Shown here: positions 26,701-52,600 of the stretch, in pieces
How the letters are laid out: the number at the start of each line of letters is the position of its first letter
Position numbering within the stretch: position 1 is the first letter of the stretch
From: Bolinopsis microptera
Taxonomy: Eukaryota > Ctenophora > Tentaculata > Lobata > Bolinopsidae
Direction: 5' to 3'
Assembly: GCF_026151205.1 (NCBI RefSeq)
Contig: NC_087079.1
Span: 14,446,445-14,510,444, forward strand
DNA length: 64,000 nt
Made by a program: the position numbers and the translations under genes
Notes under the pieces: generated by a model
What the model was told of the DNA's origin: nothing
Seen by the model: only the letters and a program-made list of their open reading frames with translations
Database searches by the model: none

Positions 26701-29700
26701 TTAGAGAACTGTGGAAACAATAAAGTAGAGGAACATATGTGCATAATATTCGAAGCTCTTCGATAATTCATCTGCCTCAAATCACGGTCTTTATTTGAAC
26801 GGACGTTAAATGAACGATAAGGCCTCCAGCGTCCAATTAATTTCCGGTCAAATGAGGTACATACTTGAAATAGGAGAAAGTAATAAGGTAAAGTAAACAT
26901 CGAAATTCGAAATGGAGCAAAGAATTGTTCCCGACTAGATATACCCCGAGAGAAGACGAGGTCAAATAATATCGAGTTACACAATACACGATCTAGCTCT
27001 GTTAAATGCCAACAATCGCCTCTGTGCAGCTGTGTTTCCTTCACTTTCATTACTCCTCATAATAAATAAAATGACGTCATCAAGCCAATATCCACAACAA
27101 ACATTGGATTTTGAATCAGCGGATATTTTAAACGAAGTAAAACATGAGAAATGGTTAATGACTTCGTAACGTAAGGTATAAACATATGGTCTTTGAATTT
27201 GTGTATACATAATGTATTCTGTCACCACCTCGAAATTTACAATTTACATTCCTAGCATGACACGAGTCATTAAAAAAAGTTGTTAGAGTTATTATATAAC
27301 AATATGACTAATCATGTAAGTCCAGAATCGCAAGATTATGACTGATTTAATTCACTTACAATGCCACCATATTTTCGATCAAAACCAATACGTATGCCCA
27401 ATTTTGACTTTTACAAACATTAAAAGATTAAACAGTTACAAATACTAATAAATGCCACAATAAAACACAAATTCTTGTAACTTTGTAATTTTTGTTTCGA
27501 TCAGAGTCATTGGTACACTTCTTACACGCTTTGTCGACTGACGTCTTCTTATCTTGACCCAATTTGTCGTCTTCTTTCTGCACGTTATTTGATGCCACCA
27601 AAATACTTCCCACTGGTGGAAGTTATACTTACCGCTAATGTGTGATGTTGATGAGATCATGACAGCCCAAACAAGCCTAGCTACTGCAGCTTAACTAACC
27701 ACCAACTCTATGCTTTCTCGTGCTGTAAAACTCTCTGAAATTGATTTGGCGACTTTGTGCAATATCAGGGTACATTGCACTGGCAGTATATTTTAGGACT
27801 TGTTTTGATCATCAACAACATTGATTTTCTTTAATTATAACCATGGTGTTACCAGGGTTACCATGGTGTTACCAGAGTTACCAGGGTTACCAGAGTTACC
27901 AGGGTTACCAGAGTTACAATTGCATGGTGATGATAGATCTTTACAATCCTAATTTCAGGTATGTGCGGCATGTTCGCGGACTCGTGAGGCAGGTTGCACC
28001 AGGGTTACCAGAGTTACCAGGGTTACCAGAGTTACAATTGCTAATTTCAGGTATGTGCGGCATGTTCGCGGACTCGTGAGGCAGGTTGCACTGGTTCGGG
28101 GACAGCAGATGCACTGAAAAAACAGCAGAAACGTATTAGGTACCGCAACGCGGAACCAACCTCTGGCTGTGCCACCAGAAGAATGGACTTCAAGAGGTTT
28201 TCTAAATTTTTCTGCATGATCTTGGTTTAAAGTTTAGCTCTCTAAATAAGTATGCTTATTTGTCAGTGTATTTGCACTAGCGGTTATCCTGCCAACCAAC
28301 CTCTCCCAGGTCAGACTCAGAGACATCCCTCTCTTCAGCAGGGAGCAGCAGTCTAGGTAGTCAGACCTCCCTGTCCTGCTCTTCCTCCTGGATCTGTGCC
28401 AAGTGTTTCATTGAGAACCCTCTCCAACACAGGGTACTACTTTCTCTTGTCATGGCCTTTTTTGATACTAAACTAACTTGCTTACTATTTAAGGTCATGT
28501 TTCGTTTTTGAATTCAATGCAGTTAGAATGTGTTAAATTTAGTGGCTATCAAGATTTCCAGTCTTTCAGTTAATTCTCCAGCCCCTTTTAGTTCTGGATT
28601 AAATATACATTACCCGATACCCTTGAACAGGCGTGTATTTCTTGTAGTACGGAGCGTAAACACATCTCCCATTTCCCCCACAACCTTCTCAACAACAGAG
28701 ACTTTAAACACTTACACAAGGTTCGTCGTTTCATTATTACTAAATATGCTAGTTAAAGATCAAATTTGCAAAATTAACTTGTATTTACCGATGAATTCAA
28801 ATTATGTTCAATAATTATGAATTATGAAATCATAATTATGTTGTTGAAATCTAGGAAGATGTGTAAATTTGTTGGGAGTGGTGAGTTGAATAACCGCTTA
28901 GTTGTACCTCTATTTACTTGTGATCCACCAGGAGGAGTACATAGGTAAGAAGAGTTGTCAACTGAAACCTCTACCACCCCTCTTAACTAACTCTCCCTCT
29001 ATCTGGGTTTGTGGGGACTGCGCGCAACAGAACAGTGTCGTCCTAGCTCACTGTATCGGCTGTTCTGCTCCCCCTGCTTCTAAAACTCCTACCCAGGTCA
29101 GTCAGTCAGTCAGTCGACAGTCAGTCAGTCAGTTAGTCAGTTAGTCGGTCGGTCTAAAGACTACGGGTGGAGGATAAATTTAAAACTTCCGACAGCATTT
29201 TTACTTGTTCTCATTGTGCAGATTCCGGGAAGCATTCTCTTTACGCTCTCATCATATTGTAGAATGAGATATCGTTCATTTAAAATTGGGTAATTAATAA
29301 TTATAGGCCTGTCAAGGATTGCAACCCAATTAAGGGATTTTGACTTCCAGTACCTCAATTTGGTCTCATACAATCATCAATTAACTGACGTATTGGTATC
29401 TCCATCCAATCTGTCAAATTTGTGTTCAGAAATTTTCATATTTGAAAATGGGACGATTTCTGCTGTGAGCTTCCTCCGACCGAAATCAAACCTCCAGCAC
29501 CTCAGTCGTGCCATATGGCATCTATAGTTGACTGACTAATTGGTTGCGGGGGAAAAATTCAGTCAAAACTGTGAAATCTCGGTCCTGGAAATTTCATCTT
29601 CAAAAAGTGAAAATAGGACAGAGAATGGGACAATATGATTCTTCAATTTTCCTCCGGATTTTGACTTCCAGTACCTCAATTTGGTTTCATAACATCATCA

Positions 29701-32700
29701 ATTAACTGATTAATTGGTCTCTGGGCAAAATCTCCATCCAATCTGTCAAATTTGTTTTTTTTTTAAATTTCATATTTGAAAATGGGACAGAAATTGGAAA
29801 ATATGAATTTTCGTTTTATTAAGCTTTCTGCTGTGAGTTTCCTCCGACCAAAATCAAACGTCCAGCACCTCAATCGTGTCATATGCCATCTATAGTTGAC
29901 TTACTAATTGGTTGCGGCCTGCGGGTGAAAAAATCAGTCAAAACTGTAACATTTCGGTCCTGGAAATTTCATCTTCAAACACTGAAAATGGGACAGAGAT
30001 TGGGAGAATATGATTTTGCAATTTTATTTGGGATTTTGACTCCAAATACCTCAATTTGGTTTCGTTCAATCATCAATTAACTGACTAATTGGTTTCTGGG
30101 CAAAGATTTCATTCAATCTGTCAAATTTGTGTTCAGAAAATTTCATATTTTAAAATGGGACCGACTTTTGAAAATACAACTTTTCGTTTTGTTAAGTTTT
30201 CTGCTGTGGGCTTCCTCCGACCGAAATCAAACTTCCAGCACTGCAATCGTGTCATATAGTATTCTCAAAAAACATATTAAAAATATATTGTATAAAATAA
30301 GAGAGAAATTAACAAAAGAGGCGCCAGTACCAAGATAAACCCTTTCCGTAATTCAGAGAATTTTCAAGGCCGACACTGTCGCACTACAGTGCGTTACCTG
30401 GACTGTAGTGCGACACGAACTAAAGTGCGACAAAACACTTTACACATTCAATAAAAATTTGACTTTCCGTTTTTAAGTTTTAATGACAAGAGTGTAGTCG
30501 TGTATGGGGTTTAATATAAAATCAAAGATTACAATCACAATATTCAATTCAAAATCATTGTTCCAACACACTTCACATAATCCATTCTGTCATAATCATC
30601 GTAGCTATCAATCACAGCGTTCAAGCGACGGTCGTAATCGGTCCACTTCTTCAGTCGGCGAGGAGGTGGTTGTCTGAGCATCTTCTGGTTGCCGTTGATC
30701 TTCCATTGGGTTAGATCCTGCTCCTTCTTCAGGACGTCGATAAATCTCCAGATAGTAGGGTTGGTGCAGCCCATCAAGGACAGGGACAAAAGGAAATCGC
30801 GGCATGTACGGAATCGCGATTTTCCCCATTATTTGCGACACATTTTATGTATAGTTTAATATACCGCGAAATGTAATTCGCGGTATCGCGTTTTTTGGCC
30901 AAAATCGCCGCGAAATCCTTTTGTCCCTGATCAAGGATCGAAAACCGTTGTGCCAACCCTCAGCAATGTTGGAACTTCTGGGAAGTCCGGCCATGAAAGC
31001 ATCCCGTTGATTCCAGATCCAGTGGGTGTAGAGGGGGGAGGAGATTTGTGTTCCGACCCAGGTACGTTCGTAGTAGTCAGCAAAGGAATCCATCTCCGAG
31101 GCTGTTCGATGCTTTGGTAGAATCATCGTGACCTTATTTATATGGCCCAAGCATATGAACTTGTTATCCCAATCGGAGATATATCTTCATACGATGCGTG
31201 TAATAGGAATGAGGATCATATGCTGCTTACGAGTTACCCAGTGGATCACACACTGCATACGTGGCTGACCCGAAGGAATTATGATCAGTAGATCACTTCG
31301 AAACACGTGATGTGAACCGACGAATCGTATTCGCAAGATCACTTCGAAATAAGTGACGTGAACCGACCCGACGAATCACTTAATGGTCCATAAGAAGGAT
31401 AGGATGTGACCTGAACTTGGAAATAAGTCAGGATATTTTGTCGCACTAGAGTACGCTACCTGGATCGTAGTGCGACACGTACTGTACTGCGACAGAGTGT
31501 GTTTTTGTCGGACTTCGCACTAGAGTACGTGTCGCACTAGAGTACGTGTCGCACTACAGTACGATTACCATTCAGGTCATGGGTAAATCTATAGTTGACT
31601 GACTAATTGGTTGCGGGTGAAAAATTCAGTAAAAACTGTGAAATCTCGGTCCTGGAAATTTCATCTTCAAAAAGTGAAAATGGGACAAGAAAATGGGACA
31701 GTATGATTTTTCCATTTTGTCGGGAATTTTGACTTCCAGTACCTCAATTTTGACTTCCAGTACCTCAATTTGGTTTCATATCATCATCAATTAACTGACT
31801 AATTGGTCTCTGGGCAAAATCTCCATATTATTAATCAACTATTATATACAGCAAACACAAGATAATAGGAAATAAATCATAAAATCGAGTGGCCGAGTAG
31901 TCTCGACTCACCCATAGCTTCTCCATAAACGTCTATCATGAGCTTTGTACACTAAATCGTTGAAATTACTTAAACTAAATCTTTTATTTACAATCACAAT
32001 AATATTCTTCGTCATAATGTCTTTTAATAATAAATCAAATAAATTTGAACGAGGTCTGCCCCTCCTTCCTTTATAGTCAAAACATCCTAAACATGCAAAT
32101 CTAAAAGATAAGAAAGCGGGAGTGTCATCACCGCTTCTGAGAACGTGCCCAAGCATCTTCCATCGTGCTTTCTTGATCCTTTCAGTAAGGGGACTGACAT
32201 TACATCTCTTATATAAGTTCTCGTTACTGATAACCGTAGGCCAATAGGTGTTGATTATCTGTCTCTGAAGATGCTTCCTTTGAAGAACATCGACAGATGC
32301 CATTACGGTTTCAGGAGCAGCCCAGCTGCTACAGTTATACAACAACACTGAAGTGACAAGAGCTTCGTACAACTTCAGCTTTCTACTCTCACTGATCTGA
32401 ACAGAGCTATTCAACCAGACTTTCTTGTAGGTGTAGAAGGCAACATTGGCTTTGTTGCGTCTGTTGACAATATCTCTTTCTGAACAGAGCTTTGATCCTA
32501 ATAGCACTGACTCTCGCCACTCTTCATTTCCTCTGATTTTATTGCCATGGGCATCTAAAGCATCTGTCTCTGCCAAATACACTCTTGTAAACACCGTCTT
32601 TGATTCGTTAACAAAGAGACTCCAGTCCTTTAGTATGTCACTGGCAATCTCCAGTATCTTCACCAGACTCTGACCATCTTCACTCAGAAGCTCAGCATCG

Positions 32701-35700
32701 TCAGCATAGGCAGACTCTAACGGGAGGCCTCTATCAGAGACTGGGGGGTTCGGTCTAGGAATTGTGACACTGATCACGGCTCTGATGTGATTCAGGGCAC
32801 CGGCAAGGGTCAATGTAAACACTTTACCTGCCAGACTGTCTCCCTGGTAAGCTCCAATATTAATCACGAATTCACCAGACTCAGCTCTGTTGACTGTCAC
32901 TTTGAGCTTTGTATTTGAGAGGAGGTACTGAACCAGGCGAATGTCGTCTCTAGAGCATCCTGCATCAATGAGGGGGTTGATGATGGTCTGTCTGCGGATG
33001 GTATTAAACGCAGCGGTCATGTCAATGTTGATTTTACTATACTCAAACTGGCGCCTGGTAACCACTGATGTCAACATTCTCTGAGACCAAACCAGGTCAG
33101 CACAACTGCGACCCTGCTTGTATGCCGCCTGCCAAGGTCCAGTGTACATATCAACGTGGTAATTGATTCTGTTTAGGGCTACGAGGGATAGGACTTTTCT
33201 AGTTCCATTTAGCAATGTGAGGGGCCGGATAGACTTTACCGGACCTCGGGGTTTTCCTGGCTTCTGAAGGGGTGTCAGGATACCTTCTCCAATAGCTGGG
33301 ATGTATGTGTTGGTCTCAAAGGAGAGATTGTAGATCCTAGCCAACTCACAGTGGAGGGGATATCCAGCAGCTTTCATTAGCTCATTAGGTATACCGTCAG
33401 GGCCACACGCTCTACCGGATTTCAGCTTCATAACAGCACGGCCGACTTCTTCAGGTGTTATGGGACAGAGGAGGCTTCCAGGAGGGTCTATGAATGCTGG
33501 GAGTTGGGGTTCATCTTTGTCATTGAACTCATTATTAAAGTATTCTTTAATAGCTTCTGCTTTTAATGAGTCAGAACCTAAGGTGTTGCCGTCTGCATCG
33601 TGGACAGTCACTCCATCTTTCTTCATCCTGCACTGGGCCAAAGTTCTATTCGCTTCAAACATGCTTCTGCAGCTGTCGGTGTTGTTGATGACATCTACTA
33701 GGGCGTTGGCAGTGGCCTCGTTGATAGATTTCAACCTCTTTTTGATGGTACGTTTGAGATGGTTGATTCTTTTTCTGAGGTCACTCCTGTCACTTATCCC
33801 TGTGAGGCTACATTCTTGCTGAAGGGACTTTCTCTCTGCTGAAAGTTTAACGACAGTTGGATCGTCGCTGTACTGATGAGGTTTCCCCGGGGGCACTTTA
33901 CCAACCACCTGGACGGCACATTTACTCAATATACCAAAAATATCAGAATTTTCAGAAATAGCATTATTAGTTAAAACTCTACAATCAATATTACTTTTAA
34001 AAGAATCAAAAAATTTAGACTTAATATCAGAATCATTAAGGCGATTGACATCAAACCTTATTTTGTCAGACCTGGGCCGCTTATGTACAATGTATTCACA
34101 ACCAAGTTTAAAACGTGCAACCACAGGTTTATGGTCAGATTTCACTAAATCACCGCAAAAAGAGCGGGAGTCTGTTAAACAGACTTTAAAGTTAGTACGA
34201 CATAAAATATGATCAATTTGTTTAAAATAGTTCACAGTGTCTTTTGAACCCTTGGGTCTGCCCTTGGGAACACATCTAGCCTTCCAGGTGGTAATATACT
34301 TCGCTCTGTGTTGGAACGCAGTATTGCACGCAAACAGACCATTATCAACAATAAAGTCCAGTAGAAACTCACCGTTCCTGTTTCTCAGACCATTAACGAA
34401 CTGACCAATATGATTATTAAAGCCAGCATCATACTCTTTCCTACTGCATCTCCCAAGTCGGGCGTTAAAATCTCCAGCAACAAACAAATCGTATCGAGCT
34501 GGGATATTGATAGCAGTTTTCAGATCATTGAAATATGATTGTAACAATGGGGAGTTACCTGTGACCTTACTGATGTCATCATCGACAATCTTCTTGGTTG
34601 GTCCGTACACGTTAACGATCCTGATCATACGATGAGATCCGTTGGGTTCTGTGAGTCTTATATCAATGAAAGCCACTCTGTTACTAAGTGATCTCCATGC
34701 AACAATAGAAGGTACAAGGACTGGGCAGATTAGAAAACCGAGACCATAATGATACCAATTGTCTGATTGGGCTAGTGTTACAAGTTTGTGACCGTTAATA
34801 ATTGTTTCCTCGAAGTCTCGGCATTTTGTCTCTTGGAGACACACTACATCAAAATGATAACGTTTAGCGTCACTTACTAAATGTTCTCTCCTAAGAATGT
34901 TACCTTTAATACCATTGAGGTTCCAACTTGAAATGTTCAGAGTCGAAGACATCGGCATAAGGAGAAGTAAGGTGAGCAAAGGTAGACTTCTAGCGAGCAC
35001 GTCTGTTACAACTGCCATTCTGCTAGTGGGGGGCGTCACTCCATTCCATCCTGACATCTCCATATAATCTGTCAAATTTGTGTTAAGAAATTTTCATATT
35101 TGAAAATGGGACAGAAATTAGAAAATATGAATTTTCGTTTTGTTAAGCTTTCTGCTGTGAGCTTCCTCCGACCGATATCAAACTTCCAGCACCTCAATTG
35201 TGTCATATGGCATCTTTAGTTGACTGACTAATTGGTTGCGGGTGAAAAATTCAGTCAAAATCGTGAAATTTCGGTCCTGGAAATTTCATCTTCGAAAACT
35301 GAAAATAGGACATAGATTGGGAGAATATGATTTTTTCCCCGATTTTGACCATACCATAATTTCTTAACATTGTGTTATTGTCTTAACATAAATTTTTTAA
35401 TGGTAAAACGTTACTGTCTATAACACTACTCGGTACAGTACATTATCAGACATGACGTTATAAAACTTTATCACCTGTAACCTGAGAAAATTTCTAGATG
35501 AGTTCCGTAATTTTCTGACGTTTTGTTTTATGCTCCGGTGCGATAAGCACGCTTTGTTGTTGACTAGCTTTTTGTTCACAGTGCATTTTTTATTCTGTAA
35601 TTTTGATTTGCTTTGGTTTTGACCAGTTTTTTGTTTTGTTTCGTTTCGTATTAAATATCGCTGATTGCAGACTTTATTAGCGTATCGCAGTGTATATATT

Positions 35701-42840: not shown

Positions 42841-43579
42841 ATAGCGATAATACTTATTATATTAGTGGTAGTCAGAACAATACAAATTAACGATCTTTAG
42901 ATTGAGTCCTTAAGAAAATTTCTCTCATACTAAATATTGTTTCAACTTTCTACCATTGATATTTTCTATTTATAGTCACTTTCCAGTTCCACGGCAAAGT
43001 GGTCACCAATCGGTTAGAATCTGACAACCACTTGTTGCATCGTTAAATTGAATTAGATGGAAATGGAATGAGCTGTCGATTGTAAGACTTTTATTTAAAA
43101 TTTAATTGAACTGTGAATTGTAGTCTTAAATTCTTGTGAAATTTAAATAGTTATAGTTGTATAAACCAGTTTAATATGTTAATTGTATGTACATCATTTA
43201 TCTAGGATATTTGTATACAGTTTCTTCTCATAATTTTTTATGTCGAGCGGAACTTGAATTTAAATTAGGTCGGATGTACTGAGTGTTTTGTATATAATTA
43301 TATTATATATTATAGACGAACCAGTTGATATTCTTTCTATGCAGAAATTATGAATAATTTACCATAAATTTATTATAATGTTGAGTTAGCTATTTATCGA
43401 ATGTCATTATATTTTCATCATTGATGGACGGTCATGTATTACTATTATAATTGTTTTATTTTGTTTGTCAAAACTGACTGAACAACATGAGTGTTTTCAG
43501 TGAGCAGGATCAGCCAGAGTTACTTTTAAATAATTAAAAATAGCGCGTTCCATCCAGATGAATTATCTGGTACAGGGTG
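42841..43579. other. CAPN15 3' flank, no gene seen
   Basis: AT-rich. The part 43340-43560 is related to 55087-55275, indicating that it belonged to the CAPN15 3' end before duplication. Confidence 0.5.
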
Positions 43580-43587
43580 ACTGAAAC

Positions 43588-43687
43588 TTGTCATACGTTG
43601 TATGACCCGCCGCGCACGAAGTGCGCGGCTCCCCCTGTATCGTCAGGACGATAGTGTATCGACCGTAAGGGTCGCAACGTAATACAA
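43588..43687. mobile_element. 100-bp hairpin MITE, copy A
   Basis: Begins TTGTCATACGTTG and ends CAACGTAATACAA (imperfect inverted repeat). Flanked by the 8-bp duplication ACTGAAAC at 43580-43587 and 43688-43695. Inside are several hairpins in series: GCCGCGCAC-GAA-GTGCGCGGC, TATCGTC-AG-GACGATA and CGACC-GTAAG-GGTCG. Confidence 0.9.
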
Positions 43688-43839
43688 ACTGAAACCTGTT
43701 CACTAGGCCTAGCCTCTAGCTATTATTATTAAATCTTTTTTGAAAGTATCATATTCGAAAATGGGACAAAAAAAGGGAAAAAAGAATTTCCGGTTTGTAA
43801 ATCTTTCTGAAGTATGTTTCCTCCGCGAGCGTGCTAAAT

Positions 43840-43975
43840 CACTTTAATTGACGATGTCAATTCATGGCAGCTCGGCGCGGCACAGTAGCGCATCTCGCCG
43901 ATCTCGCTGTGAGAAGCCCCATTGAGTGCGCGGCGCGGCACAGTAACGCATCGCGCTACAATAAATCACTAGCTA
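43840..43975. repeat. GC-rich direct repeat
   Basis: The phrase cggcgcggcacagta-cgcat occurs twice (about 43874 and 43934) with a run of CGCG-rich sequence between, in an otherwise AT-rich area. Confidence 0.5.
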
Positions 43976-44031
43976 CACTCGAATTTCCAGATTGGGATCG
44001 ACTGACATTGTATTGATAAGTCTGGAGGTGA

Positions 44032-44793
44032 GATTCACAAGTTTTAATCCGACAATTCAGTGCTACTTCAGCTTAACGGGTGATACTCGTAAAATATCTC
44101 TTTCATATATTGGACCGTCGACGAGTCCAACTCCAACTCGGCGCGCGTCCTGGTACGTAGGTTGTAAACCTACAATACTTCAGCTAGTGAGTACATGAGT
44201 TATGTTCAACTTCAATTTAAGGATAAGACTGGATCTGGACAAGTTATTTTAGTCCCTCTCAAATAATTTTCAACGGCATTTTGACAAGCTGAACATATTG
44301 CACCCTTTGAACATCCTCGATATGATTAACTTGAATTTCAAAAATGGCGAGCTGAAAGTCAGATTCACAAGTTTTAATTAAACAATTCAGTGCTACTTCA
44401 GCTTGACGGATGTTACTCGTCTAAATTTCTTCGAAGTAGCGCAGCGCGCGCCGCTTTCTTCTCGAAATGGCCTTAACGGGTGCAATACTCGTAAAATATC
44501 TGTTCCATATTGCATATATTCAATATTGGACCGTCGACGAGTCCAACTCGGCGCGCGTCCTGGTAGGTTGTAAACCTACAAGAAACGGCCCGATGACAAG
44601 TGCTACGAAGTAGCGCGTGCCGGGCCAGATCATTAACAATGGTCAATACTTCAGCTAGTGCAGAGTTATGTTCAATTTAATTTTAAGGATAAGACTGGAT
44701 CTGGACAAGTCATTTTAGGGCCTATCAAATAATTTCCAACGGTATTTTGACGAGCTGAACATCCTGCATCCTTTGAAGATCCTCGATTTTATC
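44032..44793. repeat. Tandem duplication, two copies of about 300 and 430 bp
   Basis: Copy 1 (44032-44325) and copy 2 (44362-44793) share gattcacaagttttaat, ggaccgtcgacgagtccaa, taggttgtaaacctaca, aaggataagactggatctgg and the end tcctcgat. Copy 2 is longer because of two hairpin-rich insertions (near 44425-44480 and 44581-44640). Confidence 0.85.
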
Positions 44794-44794
44794 T

Positions 44795-47700
44795 AATCTG
44801 TCAAATTTGTGTTCAGAAAATTTCATATTGGAAAATGGGACAGACTTTTAAAAATACAACTTTTCGATTTGTTAAGCTTTCTGCTGTGGGCTTCCTCCGA
44901 CCGAAATCAAACTTCCAGCACCTCAATCGTGTCATATGCCATCTAATTCTATATTTGACTTACTAATTGGTTGCGGGTGAAAAAATCAGTCAAAACTCAA
45001 AACTGTAAAATTTCGGTCCTGGAAATTTCATCTTCAAAAACTGAAAATGGGACAGAGATTGGTAAAATATGATTTTGCATTTTTTTTCGGGATTTTGACT
45101 CCAAATACCTCAATTTGGTTTCATACCATCATCAATTAACTGACTAATTGGTTTCTGGGTAAAGATTTCATCCAATCTGTCAAATTTGTGTTCAGAAAAT
45201 TTCATATTTGAAAATGGGACAGACTTTTAAAAGTACAACTTTTTGATTTGTTAAGCTTTCTGCTGTGGGCTTCCTCCGACCGAAATCAAACTTTGAGCAC
45301 CTCAATCGTGTCATATGTTGTATCACGTGGTGCCCCCCACGGTCGCTTAACTATAGTGTAGCGTCTTCGACGCTACAGGGGGAGCCGCGCACTTCGTGCG
45401 CGGCGGGTCATACAACGTATGACAAGTCATATGCCATTTATAGTTGACTTACTAATTGGTTGCGGGTGAAAAAATCAGTCAAAACTGTAAAATTTCGGTC
45501 CTGGAAATTTTATCTTCAAAAACTGAAAATGGGACAGAGATTGGGAGAATATGATTTTGCAATTTTTTTCGGGATTTCGACTCCAAATACCTCAATTTGG
45601 TTTCATACCATCATCAATTAACTGACTAATTGGTTTCTGGGTAAAGATTTCAGCCAATCTGTCAAATTTGTGTTCAGAAAATTTCATATTTGAAAATGGG
45701 ACAGACTTTTAAAAATACAACTTTTTGATTTGTTAAGCTTTCTGCTGTGGGCTTCCTCCGACCGAAATCAAACTTCCAGCACCTCAATCGTGTCATATGC
45801 CATTTATAGTTGGCTTACTAATTGGTTGCGGGTGAAAAAATCAGTCAAAACTGTAAAATTTCGGTCCTGGAAATTTCATCTTCAAAAACTGAAAATGGGA
45901 CAGAGATTGGGAGAATATGATTTTGCAATTTTTTTAGGGATTTTGACTCCAAATACCTCAATTTGGTTTCATACCATCATCAATTAACTGACTAATTGGT
46001 GTCTGGGCAAAGATTTCATCCAATCTGTCAAATTTGTGTTCAGAAAATGTATATTTGAAAATGGGACAGACTTTTAAAAATACAACTTTTTGATTTGTTA
46101 AGCTTTCTGCTGTGGGCTTCCTCCGACCGAAATCAAACTTCCAGCACCTCAATCGTGTCATATGCCATCTATAGTTGACTTACCTACTAATTGGTTGCGG
46201 GTGAAAAAATCAGTCAAAACTGTAAAATTTCGGTCCTGGAAATTTCATCTTCAAAAACTGAAAATGGGACAGAGATTGGGAGAATATGATTTTGCATTTT
46301 TATTTCGAGATTTCGACTCCAAATACCTCAATTTGGTTTCATACCATCATCAATTAACTGACTAATTGGTTTCTGGGTAAAGATTTCATCCAATCTGTCA
46401 AATTTGTGTTCAGAAAATTTCATATTTGAAAATGGGACAGACTTTTAAAAATACAACTTTTTGATTTGTTAAGCTTTCTGCTGTGGGCTTCCTCCGACCA
46501 AAATCAAACTTCCAGCACCTCAATCGTGTCATATGCCATTTATAGTTGACTTACTAATTGGTTGCGGGTGAAAAAATCAGTCAAAACTGTAAAATTTCGG
46601 TCCTGGAAATTTTATCTTCAAAAACTGAAAATGGGACAGAGATTGGGAGAATATGATTTTGCAATTTTTTTCGGGATTTCGACTCCAAATACCTCAATTT
46701 GGTTTCATACCATCATCAATTAACTGACTAATTGGTTTCTGGGTAAAGATTTCATCCAATCTGTCAAATTTGTGTTCAGAAAATTTCATATTTGAAAATG
46801 GGACAGACTTTTGAAAATACAACTTTTTGATTTGTTAAGCTTTCTGCTGTGGGCTTCCTCCGACCGAAATCAAACTTCCAGCACCTCAATCGTGTCATAT
46901 TATAGTTGACTAACTAATTGGTTGCGGGCGAAAAAATCAGTCAAAACTGTAAAATTTCGGTCCTGGAAATTTTATCTTCAAAAACTGAAAATGGGACAGA
47001 GATTGGGAGAATATGATTTTGCAATTTTTTTCGGGATTTCGACTCCAAATACCTCAATTTGGTTTCATACCATCATCAATTAACTGACTAATTGGTTTCT
47101 GGGTAAAGATTTCATCCAATCTGTCAAATTTGTGTTCAGAAAATTTCATATTTGAAAATGGGACAGACTTTTAAAAATACAACTTTTTGATTTGTTAAGC
47201 TTTCTGCTGTGGGCTTCCTCCGACCGAAATCAAACTTCCAGCACCTCAATCGTGTCATATGCCATCTATAGTTGACTTACCTACTAATTGGTTGCGGGTG
47301 AAAAAATCAGTCAAAACTGTAAAATTTCGGTCCTGGAAATTTCATCTTCAAAAACTGAAAATGGGACAGAGATTGGGAGAATATGATTTTGCATTTTTAT
47401 TTCGAGATTTCGACTCCAAATACCTCAATTTGGTTTCATACCATCATCAATTAACTGACTAATTGGTTTCTGGGTAAAGATTTCATCCAATCTGTCAAAT
47501 TTGTGTTCAGAAAATTTCATATTTGAAAATGGGACAGACTTTTAAAAATACAACTTTTTGATTTGTTAAGCTTTCTGCTGTGGGCTTCCTCCGACCAAAA
47601 TCAAACTTCCAGCACCTCAATCGTGTCATATGCCGTTTATAGTTGACTTACTAATTGGTTTCGGGTGAAATAATCAGTCAAAACTGTAAAATTTCGGTCC

Positions 47701-49372
47701 TGGAAATTTTATCTTCAAAAACTGAAAATGGGACAGAGATTGGGAGAATATGATTTTGCAATTTTTTTAGGGATTTTGACTCCAAATACCTCAATTTGGT
47801 TTCATACCATCATCAATTAACTGACTAATTGGTTTCTGGGCAAAGATTTCATCCAATCTGTCAAATTTGTGTTCAGAAAATTTCATATTTGAAAATGGGA
47901 CAGACTTTTAAAAATACAACTTTTTGATTTGTTAAGCTTTCTGCCGTGGGCTTCCTCCTACCGAAATCAAACTTCCAGCACCTCAATCGTGTCATATGCC
48001 ATCTATAGTTGACTTACTTATTGGTTGCGGGTGAAAAAATCAGTCAAAACTGTAAAATTTCGGTCCTGGAAATTTCATCTTCAAAAACTGAAAATGGGAC
48101 AGAGATTGGGAGAATATGATTTTGCATTTTTATTTCGAGATTTCGACTCCAAATACCTCAATTTGGTTTCATACCATCATCAATTAACTGACTAATTGGT
48201 TTCTGGGTAAAGATTTCATCCAATCTGTCAAATTTGTGTTCAGAAAATTTCATATTTGAAAATGGGACAGACTTTTAAAAATACAACTTTTTGATTTGTT
48301 AAGCTTTCTGCCTGGGCTTCCTCCGACCAAAATCAAACTTCCAGCACCTCAATCGTGTCATATGCCATTTATAGTTGGCTTACTAATTGGTTGCGGGTGA
48401 AAAAATCAGTCAAAACTGTAAAATTTCGGTCCTGGAAATTTTATCTTCAAAAACTGAAAATGGGACAGAGATTGGGAGAATATGATTTTGCAATTTTTTT
48501 AGGGATTTTGACTCCAAATACCTCAATTTGGTTTCATACCATCATCAATTAACTGACTAATTGGTGTCTGGGCAAAGATTTCATCCAATCTGTCAAATTT
48601 GTGTTCAGAAAATTTCATATTTGAAAATGGGACAGACTTTTAAAAATACAACTTTTTGATTTGTTAAGCTTTCTGCTGTGGGCTTCCTCCGACCGAAATC
48701 AAACTTCCAGCACCTCAATCGTGTCATATGCCATCTATAGTTGACTTACCTACTAATTGGTTGCGGGTGAAAAAATCAGTCAAAACTGTAAAATTTCGGT
48801 CCTGGAAATTTCATCTTCAAAAACTGAAAATGGGACAGAGATTGGGAGAATATGATTTTGCATTTTTATTTCGAGATTTCGACTCCAAATACCTCAATTT
48901 GGTTTCATACCATCATCAATTAACTGACTAATTGGTTTCTGGGTAAAGATTTCATCCAATCTGTCAAATTTGTGTTCAGAAAATTTCATATTTGAAAATG
49001 GGACAGACTTTTAAAAATACAACTTTTTGATTTGTTAAGCTTTCTGCTGTGGGCTTCCTCCGACCGAAATCAAACTTCCAGCACCTCAATCGTGTCATAT
49101 GCCATCTATAGTTGACTTACTTATTGGTTGCGGGTGAAAAAATCAGTCAAAACTGTAAAATTTCGGTCCTGGAAATTTCATCTTCAAAAACTGAAAATGG
49201 GACAGAGATTGGGAGAATATGATTTTGCATTTTTTTTTCGGGATTTTGACTCCAAATACCTCAATTTGGTTTCATACCATCATCAATTAACTGACTAATT
49301 GGTTTCTGGGCAAAGATTTCATCCAATCTGTCAAATTTGTGTTCAGAAAATGTCATATTTGAAAATGGGACA
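44795..49372. repeat. Satellite array, about 366-bp unit, 12.5 copies
   Basis: Monomers begin (at the phrase tatagttgact) near 45436, 45805, 46171, 46544, 46904, 47268, 47640, 48005, 48370, 48737 and 49105, a spacing of 360-374 bp. Neighbouring copies differ at diagnostic sites (gccatctatag / gccatttatag; cttacctactaatt / cttactaatt; catttttatttcgag / caatttttttaggg) and these variants recur at three- to four-unit spacing, a higher-order pattern. The frames of 60-67 codons inside it repeat with the monomers and are not genes. Confidence 0.95.
45318..45425. mobile_element. 108-bp hairpin MITE, copy B, inside the satellite
   Basis: The same family as 43588-43687 in opposite orientation. It begins TTGTATCACGTGG and ends CAACGTATGACAA, with an exact 8-bp duplication GTCATATG at 45310-45317 and 45426-45433. 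Internal hairpins: GTAGCGTC-TTC-GACGCTAC and GCCGCGCAC-TTC-GTGCGCGGC. It lies at the edge of a satellite monomer that its neighbours carry uninterrupted. Confidence 0.92.
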
Positions 49373-49603
49373 GGCTTTTGCGGCTTGCGTGTGGGCAGTT
49401 ACTTTGGCCTTGGCCACCCTGTACATATAAAATTAAATAAGACAATAATGATTTTTTTTAAATGTAGCTAATACATCATCCATATTATTGATTCAATTCT
49501 AATTTATACCTATGGCAAAATTATTGCTTCAATTCCCATTTAAATTTTAGACGACGAATAATACATTGTCAGTCAATAAGTACATTATCAGACCTACCAT
49601 ACA

Positions 49604-49635: not shown

Positions 49636-52600
49636 TTAGTTCGACTGAGTTTGTGACAGATTTGGGGCTGTGTGAGAGTTGACGTATCTGACCACCCTTC
49701 TTCCTTTTCTCAGAACCATGTCACTGTACAGAAGTGGGTTTATAACCGAGTTGAAGGGAAGGATAACAACAGAGAAAACTGGATACCAAGACGAAGCATC
49801 AATAACCTCCCAGAAATGCAGTCCACACACCACGATGAAGGGTATCCAGCACAGGAAATCAGTGGCAATGATAATGCTGACCTTGGTTTGAAGCTTTAGA
49901 TCACGTCTTCTAGCTGATGATTTTTTTGAAATAACCTTACTGGAGTGTCTGACAACAAAGCATTGAATGACAGTGTAACAGCTGGTGATGAAGAGAAAGC
50001 ACACGAAGTTTAGAGAAAGAACAGCAAGGGAGTAAGCATACTGTGGATCTGTTTTGGTAACCAGATATTTAAAGATGCAGACACTGTCACTCCCATAGAA
50101 TTCAACTTTTGATCCAGAAATTCCATCATTGTCCTGTGAGAACATCTCTCTAACCATCCGCCTCACTGTTTCCCAGCTAATGGGTTGTTCACGATATCTT
50201 CCGTTGTAGCTTTGTAAGATACGGTGATGAGACTCTTTGTCTACTATCCCTGTAAATAAGGTCACTCCTTCGTAATGTAGCCCGTTTACAAAGAAATCCT
50301 CTAATGGAGGAAAAAGAGGAAACACTGAGATAGCTATTGAGACGAACAGCAGGATCGTAACTATCGCTGACACCTTCATCTTTCCTTTCGTGTTGTTTGG
50401 ATCTTTGGGGACCAAAGTTTTGACATTGGTCAGCCTAGAAATACCTAAAGCTGCCATGGAAAAGAGAGATAGTTGGGATCCAATGGTGCTGAGAGTTCCG
50501 AGGACGGTGCAGTAGGGACTGGTCAGCCACCTGTACTTCTCTTTGCAGTAACTTGCCAAGTAGAATGCGTCCACTGCCGCAATGCTCAGAAGATAAACTC
50601 CCACCAAGAAATCTCCAACAGCTACTAAAAGTATCAGTGATTTATCAATCCTGTTCTTAAGGGACTGAGAATTCCTGATCTCTTTAAGAGAAGTGATGAA
50701 GACAGTAAGATTCAAAATGGTTGCAAGCAACCCACTTAGCCACGCAAAGACTTTGAGGAAAGAACTCTGAAGCAAATTCCGAGATGAACGGGAACACATT
50801 TCTCCACATTCGTCGGAGAAATCTCGGCAATCGATCTTACCATCACACACAGACGTTTTAAGCACATATTCACCGGTCTCCGCACATTTAAAGTTATTCA
50901 CGCAACCTCTTTCATCACTGCTATCTCCACAATCATCGACTAGGTTACACACTTTATCATAAGTTACACAGTGGCTATTATCACACGAGAAATACTTGTT
51001 GAAATATCTCCCCCGATCTCTAGCAACAATTGTAAGACTGTATTCCTCAGTCAGACTGTACACTTTATTTTTGTCGGGTATGTCCACACAGCTGTTTTGT
51101 TTGACCCGACCAAGAGGGCATAAAGCTTGTTCACATTTACCAGAGCAGCTGAGGTACACATAGATCTCCCCGTATGTGTTTCCACAGTCATAGTTTCCAG
51201 ATGGGACTTTGATTTGATAGTTTGTCGTGCCAAGTATATTTTTGTCTGGAGCTGTGAAGGCTTCTAGAGAACATTTACCCATTAAATGCTGAAGCTCACC
51301 CATTCCTCGGAGACAGTATGAAATGCGCTTGACATGAAGCTTATCCTCTAGCACAAAATCCCATGTATTTAGTCGACTTTTGGCTTTCTGGCAGACCTTA
51401 TTTTCTATTCCGCACGAGGGGGTTTTGTCACAGAGATCATCAAATGTGACAAATCTACCTAGTTTGTCGTCTTTGTTACACAAAAATACTTCGCTACATA
51501 CCGATCCTTTTTCTACATACCTAATACTTTGTCCACTACCACATCTCTGCCACGATTCTGCATCTTCATCGATCTCATCTTTACAATCAACTTTTCCGTC
51601 CATAACCCATGACATTGGGAATTCCATCATACTTGAGGACCGTTCCATATTTACCCTTCTTACGCACTTTTGTACCGAAAGGGTCGAGCAAAATGTCTTA
51701 GTCTCATCAGTTCCCCTAGGACAATCAGGATACCCATCACAGAGCTGGTTTTTGTGCAGAACACAGCCACCCTCCACCTCCACGCACTGGTTCTGGTACC
51801 CGTCGTCACACAGTTCGTACTCTCTACAAATAGCAAACACTGAAAGGGTTGTTGTAAACCCCCTCACTTCACAACTCATAGCTACCCGGTCAGTATCAGT
51901 GCAGTTGATCTGGTCCTTGCCGTCTTGACAGGTGTAAGCGTACGGTCCCAGTCTGGGCACTGCGCAGATCTGGTGGGGGTAGAGCGATCTGACCATGTCC
52001 GGGAAACTGTTGTAGTAGTCCGGTCCATGTAGATCTCCGGGTGTGCATGTCCGGAGAGTATCCTCTTCACGGCAATTCTCTTCGTCTAGTCCGTTGTAAC
52101 AGTCCCTCTTATTATCACACATGTACATGGCGTGGACGTGTTGCCCGTACGTGGAATCGCAGATGACACCGTAAGTCCTGTTCCCACATTCTGCTTCGTC
52201 ATTGCACCTGTGACAGTCGCACTTTAGATCACATACTTGATCAGCACGAATGTTGCTCATAGCCTCACCCATACAGCGATATGATTCCTGGGGATCCGGA
52301 CAACCTAGCTCATCTACATCGGTGTTTGAACATGTCTGTTCTCGTTGCAATCAGCATATCTTTTGTTTGCAAGACCGGATATGATCTTGTTACCAAACGT
52401 GATTGTGATATTGTCACCAAGAAACGCGTAGTTTTGTCCTTGATACTGGCAAGTGTAGGTCCTACAAAACTTCTCATCTAAATCTCTCCCAAAGTTACTC
52501 TCACATTCGGACCTGATGTGTCCACAAACCTCGTAAAACCTGGGGTCGTTAGGACAGAGCCGGTTGTATTTGAGAGTGCAGTTGGTTGACCACTTGGTGA

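Follow-up and report, generated by a model that had tools for sequence, protein, structure and literature searches.

Relation to described elements and processes

In foldback elements and palindrome-rich mini-elements, internal hairpins dominate the sequence. The same is true for the two short units described here, which we term copy 1 and copy 2, although these carry short terminal repeats (pairing at 11/13 positions in copy 1) and their hairpins are separate short palindromes. Transposons of the hAT superfamily have CA/TA-type first bases at their ends. The 8-bp target duplications of both copies fit this superfamily, but their ends start with TTGT and do not show the hAT motif. TTGT ends also do not match the end motifs of P and Merlin, and no superfamily is assigned here. 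A small element that can be compared in more respects is Mar, a hAT MITE of Drosophila, whose ends read CAG(G/A)GGTAGGC and whose duplication has the form nnnTAnnn (PMC3517528). Mar resembles the present copies in that it is short and non-coding, carries inverted terminal repeats, is flanked by 8-bp duplications and needs a transposase from outside (PMC3517528). It differs in that the ends here are TTGT and that neither ACTGAAAC nor GTCATATG, the duplicated target sites of the two copies, has TA at positions 4-5.

With regard to the origin of hairpins, it was proposed that template switching creates perfect stems in one event and furthermore maintains or repairs them (PMC8794818). The present hairpins are similar in that perfect stems and paired arm changes are expected from one such event, whereas the process was described for RNA genes and is applied to the present element by analogy (PMC8794818).

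Two insertions with TTGT...ACAA ends

Copy 1 is located at 43588-43687 (+ strand, 100 bp) and copy 2 at 45318-45425 (- strand, 108 bp) of the window, i.e., the whole 64-kb stretch of DNA that was analysed. Both have TTGT...ACAA ends; their orientations are opposite and the distance between them is 1.6 kb. Copy 1 is flanked by ACTGAAAC at 43580-43587 and at 43688-43695 and copy 2 by GTCATATG at 45310-45317 and at 45426-45433, the 8-bp duplications being exact in 2/2 copies and differing between them. This confirms the positions, orientation, ends and duplications reported in the sequence-only reading of this DNA. The terminal inverted repeats are weaker in copy 2, in which 10 of the 11 terminal pairs of copy 1 are retained, one of these as G:T; over 15 end bases the inverted ends agree at 11/15 positions in copy 1 and at 10/15 in copy 2. 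Neither copy is overlapped by an open reading frame of at least 120 aa, and a length of 100-108 bp is too short to encode a transposase.

The whole window was scanned for units of 50-600 bp that have TTGT...ACAA ends and an exact 8-bp duplication, and copies 1 and 2 were the only ones returned, compared to a mean of 0.03 and a maximum of 1 such unit in 30 first-order Markov shuffles. When one mismatch was tolerated, a third candidate of 580 bp with poor inverted ends appeared. In a more general MITE scan (60-400 bp, exact 8-bp duplication, at least 10/12 end bases inverted) copy 1 and an element at 30781-30929 passed while copy 2 failed, with none found in 10 shuffles. The element at 30781-30929 is a 149-bp hAT-like MITE whose inverted ends, CAGGGACAAAAG, match perfectly over 12 bp and whose 8-bp duplication, ATCAAGGA, is exact; it begins with CAG, and its hAT label rests on the end motif. 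BLAST searches of the window with both copies as queries and E up to 10 gave short matches only and no third copy. The term family, as used in the earlier reading, is appropriate in so far as two copies have common ends, but it is based on n=2 with no third copy found in the window.

The insertion history of copy 2 can be read from its surroundings. The satellite that adjoins copy 2 (45426-49379) comprises 10.8 copies of a repeat of about 366 bp, and copy 2 interrupts one of its monomers. When the flanks of copy 2 were fused so that the duplication was present only once, the resulting sequence matched 14 other places in the window across the junction, i.e., sites without the element. In 12 of these 14 empty sites GTCATATG is exact; of the other two, one shows a one-base change and one a 6-base deletion starting inside the 8-mer. 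Further flank matches, including the two flanks of copy 2 itself, do not cross the junction. For copy 1, no empty site was found within the window. A period-375 stretch at 29457-30257 is related to the 366-bp satellite, and further satellite-related stretches are present at 35150 and 44879.

Because of their ends, their duplications, their size and their lack of coding capacity, both units are very probably members of a family of non-autonomous cut-and-paste DNA transposons (MITEs), the inner hairpins being a sequence property of this family. The interpretation given earlier thereby holds in one part and not in the other: the MITE reading is well supported by ends, duplications and empty sites, but an importance of the fold, which had been suggested from kept pairing with changed sequence, is not established.

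Concerning the wider surroundings, the GC content of the window is 37.9%, compared to 37.5% in the springtail Folsomia candida (PMC5490193), to which no other feature links it. A diverged direct duplication (44020-44330 versus 44340-44780) lies between the copies, and one of its two units has two extra, partly GC-rich stretches, of ~70 bp near 44400-44470 and of ~65 bp near 44578-44643. Pfam was run on 10 predicted open reading frames of the 24 of at least 120 aa that were listed, and assigned families to 4/10 and none to 6/10; the families comprise UDP-glycosyltransferase, LDL-receptor class A with a 7TM receptor, C2H2 finger, and a non-LTR type endonuclease with reverse transcriptase. These assignments suggest that the DNA comes from an animal. 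At 31908-35075 (- strand) the endonuclease and the reverse transcriptase are found in one long open frame, which is probably a non-LTR retrotransposon, and a receptor-like frame at 49636-52350 (- strand) combines LDL-receptor class A and rhodopsin-type 7TM domains.

Internal hairpins and predicted folds

Copy 1 contains one GC-rich hairpin and three further potential hairpins, all given on the + strand. The GC-rich hairpin H2 (43609-43629) has a stem of 9 bp with a GAA loop and is identical in both copies; in copy 2 it lies at 45384-45404 (- strand), where the element strand again has GAA as the 3-nt loop. The perfect GC hairpin that had been described as common to both copies was thus found again as a stem of 9 bp closed by a 3-nt loop. 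The potential hairpin H1 (43590-43606, 7 bp, GTT loop) likewise has the same sequence in both copies. H3 can form 7 bp with an AG loop in copy 1 (43638-43653); in copy 2 (45357-45377, - strand) its stem has 9 bp and its loop of 3 nt reads GAA on the element strand. Finally, H4 of copy 1 (43660-43674) comprises 5 bp. A scan of the whole 64 kb for perfect stems of at least 7 bp with loops of 2-4 nt yielded 33 hairpins, of which three reach a GC content of at least 50% in the stem, and 3/3 of these are inside copies 1 and 2; H3 of copy 1 falls below this GC limit. In 10 shuffled windows the mean was 17.2 hairpins, and the GC-rich ones reached a mean of 1.1 and a maximum of 3. The number of GC-rich hairpins is by itself not significant, and it is their location that is exceptional.

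Both copies are predicted to fold more stably than shuffled sequences, with z from -3.93 to -5.57 for RNA and from -4.95 to -5.47 for DNA, each calculated for both copies and both strands. In seven of the eight foldings 0/200 shuffles were equally stable, and in the eighth 1/200. Good folding scores of this kind arise from terminal repeats and palindromes by themselves. The best fold of copy 1 is an end-to-end stem with inner arms, containing H2 in 4/4 foldings and H1 and H3 in 0/4, whereas the best fold of copy 2 consists of separate hairpins with H1, H2 and H3 all present in 4/4 foldings. As the best folds differ between the copies, there is no common fold of the whole element. Moreover, none of the four minimum-energy folds calculated for copy 1 contains H3, and the allegedly conserved stem is therefore not predicted in one of the two copies.

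Divergence between the copies and pairing of the stems

The first 52 nt are identical between the copies and every difference is found in the 3' part. Counted by column, the first 50 columns are identical at 50/50 and the rest at 39/50, with gaps in a further 8 columns (p about 0.0005 by Fisher test, an optimistic value as the boundary was picked after the alignment was seen). H1 and H2 are invariant between the copies and for this reason uninformative on covariation. How the remaining stems are judged depends on the alignment. The sequence alignment has 11 mismatches, 8 gap columns and no two-sided pair change, H3 differing by one change in the left arm and by an indel of 7 nt on its right side. 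The structure-guided alignment has 14 mismatches, 8 gap columns and one double change in H3, from T:A to G:C. Over the six stems counted, the double changes amount to at most 1 (structure-guided) or 0 (sequence alignment), with n=2 copies. In both alignments pairs of other stems are broken in copy 2, namely 2/5 in H4, 1/5 in the inner GACCC/GGGTC stem and 1/11 in the terminal stem, where the one-sided change to G:T is retained as a pair; H4 and the inner stem have 3' bases in common, so their breaks are not independent. The second stem, which had been presented as changing in sequence while keeping its pairing, is able to pair in either copy, over 7 bp in copy 1 and over 9 bp in copy 2, but its change from T:A to G:C concerns a single pair and exists in the structure-guided alignment only. 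As evidence for compensatory stem changes this is weak, coming from two copies and depending on the alignment.

The retention of H3 was compared with a simulation in which the 3' 50 nt of copy 1 received 14 random substitutions (200,000 runs, uniform model without indels). At least one double change in H3 occurred in 16% of the runs, all 7/7 pairs were retained in 0.8%, and retention together with at least one double change was seen in 0.4%. Pairing in H3 is retained better than this uniform random model predicts, for a stem that was selected for study because of its pairing. A templated change of one arm would have the same effect on retention. Furthermore, in the 7-nt insert CTACACT of copy 2 5/7 nt complement the opposite arm, which fits templated synthesis, the insert being too short for proof.

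Database and literature searches

No Rfam family was found in the window at gathering score, and at E up to 10 the region 43570-45440 gave four hits, none of which overlaps copy 1 or copy 2. The idea of a ribozyme or another known structured RNA, raised earlier as one possibility, is accordingly left without support, as neither copy has an Rfam match. Exact searches of viral contigs with an 18-base core, a 19-base end, a 24-base hairpin or a satellite piece gave no match, whereas a degenerate pattern of the ends was present in 13 viral contigs, with stretches of 19-32 bases only at E up to 1 and a best E of 0.028. Phages and plasmids gave no match at E 1e-5 with copy 1 as the sole query. The 18-base core piece is exact in 14 prokaryote contigs, some of them from related strains, and BLAST of both copies against prokaryote contigs showed 18-21 bases in common at the pattern and short weak matches elsewhere. 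By our own arithmetic, a given sequence of 18 bases should occur by chance about 7 times when both strands of 257 billion bases are counted. Copies in prokaryotes were rejected on these grounds. In the literature, no title about transposons was among the matches listed for the end sequence TTGTCATACG, and no title describing a TTGT...ACAA family was among those listed for hairpin MITEs or MITEs with 8-bp duplications.

Proposed mechanism and rival explanations

For mobilisation, the TTGT...ACAA ends would be recognised by a DDE-type transposase that another part of the genome supplies in trans. This enzyme would join the ends to a target whose strands are cut 8 bp apart, and filling of the gaps at this staggered cut would give rise to the 8-bp duplications, which are directly seen at both copies. 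No transposase or autonomous partner was found. With less certainty, the arms of H3 may have changed together by hairpin-templated or template-switch synthesis, to which short palindromes would be prone. Since template switching can yield matching arm changes, such changes need not mean selection on an RNA.

Selection on a folded RNA of the element, e.g., a small structured RNA or ribozyme in which the stem change is compensatory, would explain that both copies fold better than shuffles (z -3.9 to -5.6) and that H3 can pair fully in both copies with different arms, a degree of retention that is rare in the simulations. The folding scores are, however, provided by terminal inverted repeats and palindromes alone, a double change in H3 arises in 16% of the same simulations and concerns a stem chosen because it pairs, and there is at most one such change, visible in a single alignment. 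Together with the broken pairs in H4, the inner stem and the terminal stem, the different best RNA folds of the copies, that of copy 1 without H1 and H3, and the lack of an Rfam match at gathering score, this makes selection on an RNA highly improbable. For the same reasons, i.e., at most one double change, other varying stems partly broken and best folds that differ, the earlier proposal that the folded form matters is not established. Hairpins of the d(GCGAAGC) type are unusually stable as DNA. The hairpins might accordingly act as DNA, extruded or single-stranded C-GAA-G triloops aiding recognition by the transposase or in a replication step, and such loops are present on the element strand in H2 of both copies and in H3 of copy 2, in line with the DNA folding scores (z -4.95 to -5.47). 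We consider also this quite unlikely, as the loops vary (copy 1 has GTT in H1 and AG in H3), the best DNA folds of copy 1 lack both of these hairpins, and the exact 8-bp duplications indicate ordinary double-stranded cut-and-paste. An equally small chance is given to a so far undescribed mini-transposon family, in which triloop hairpins would be kept as a mobilisation signal in single-stranded DNA (or in a transcript), the arms co-evolving while loops and joints drift.

Within the preferred MITE reading, the identity over 52 nt followed by divergence suggests that the copies may be mosaics of related subfamilies or may have been partially homogenised by gene conversion. Gene conversion between nearby inverted copies as the specific cause, in place of a mosaic source or constraint, would agree with the identical first 52 nt next to a diverged 3' part and with the arrangement of the copies, 1.6 kb apart and in opposite orientation. 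It is nevertheless a tentative explanation and somewhat unlikely to be the correct one, as the same pattern is expected from a source element that was itself a mosaic or from a 5' half constrained by function, and two copies cannot discriminate between these.

Implications

As a summary, the insertion pair is cleanly documented, and for copy 2 the satellite array supplies sites without the element. The hairpins call for caution: that both arms of a short palindrome have changed in a matching way is by itself no evidence of selection on an RNA, because such changes can depend on the alignment and because template switching can produce them. If many copies exist, this family could make it easier to tell hairpin-templated mutation apart from selection on hairpins.
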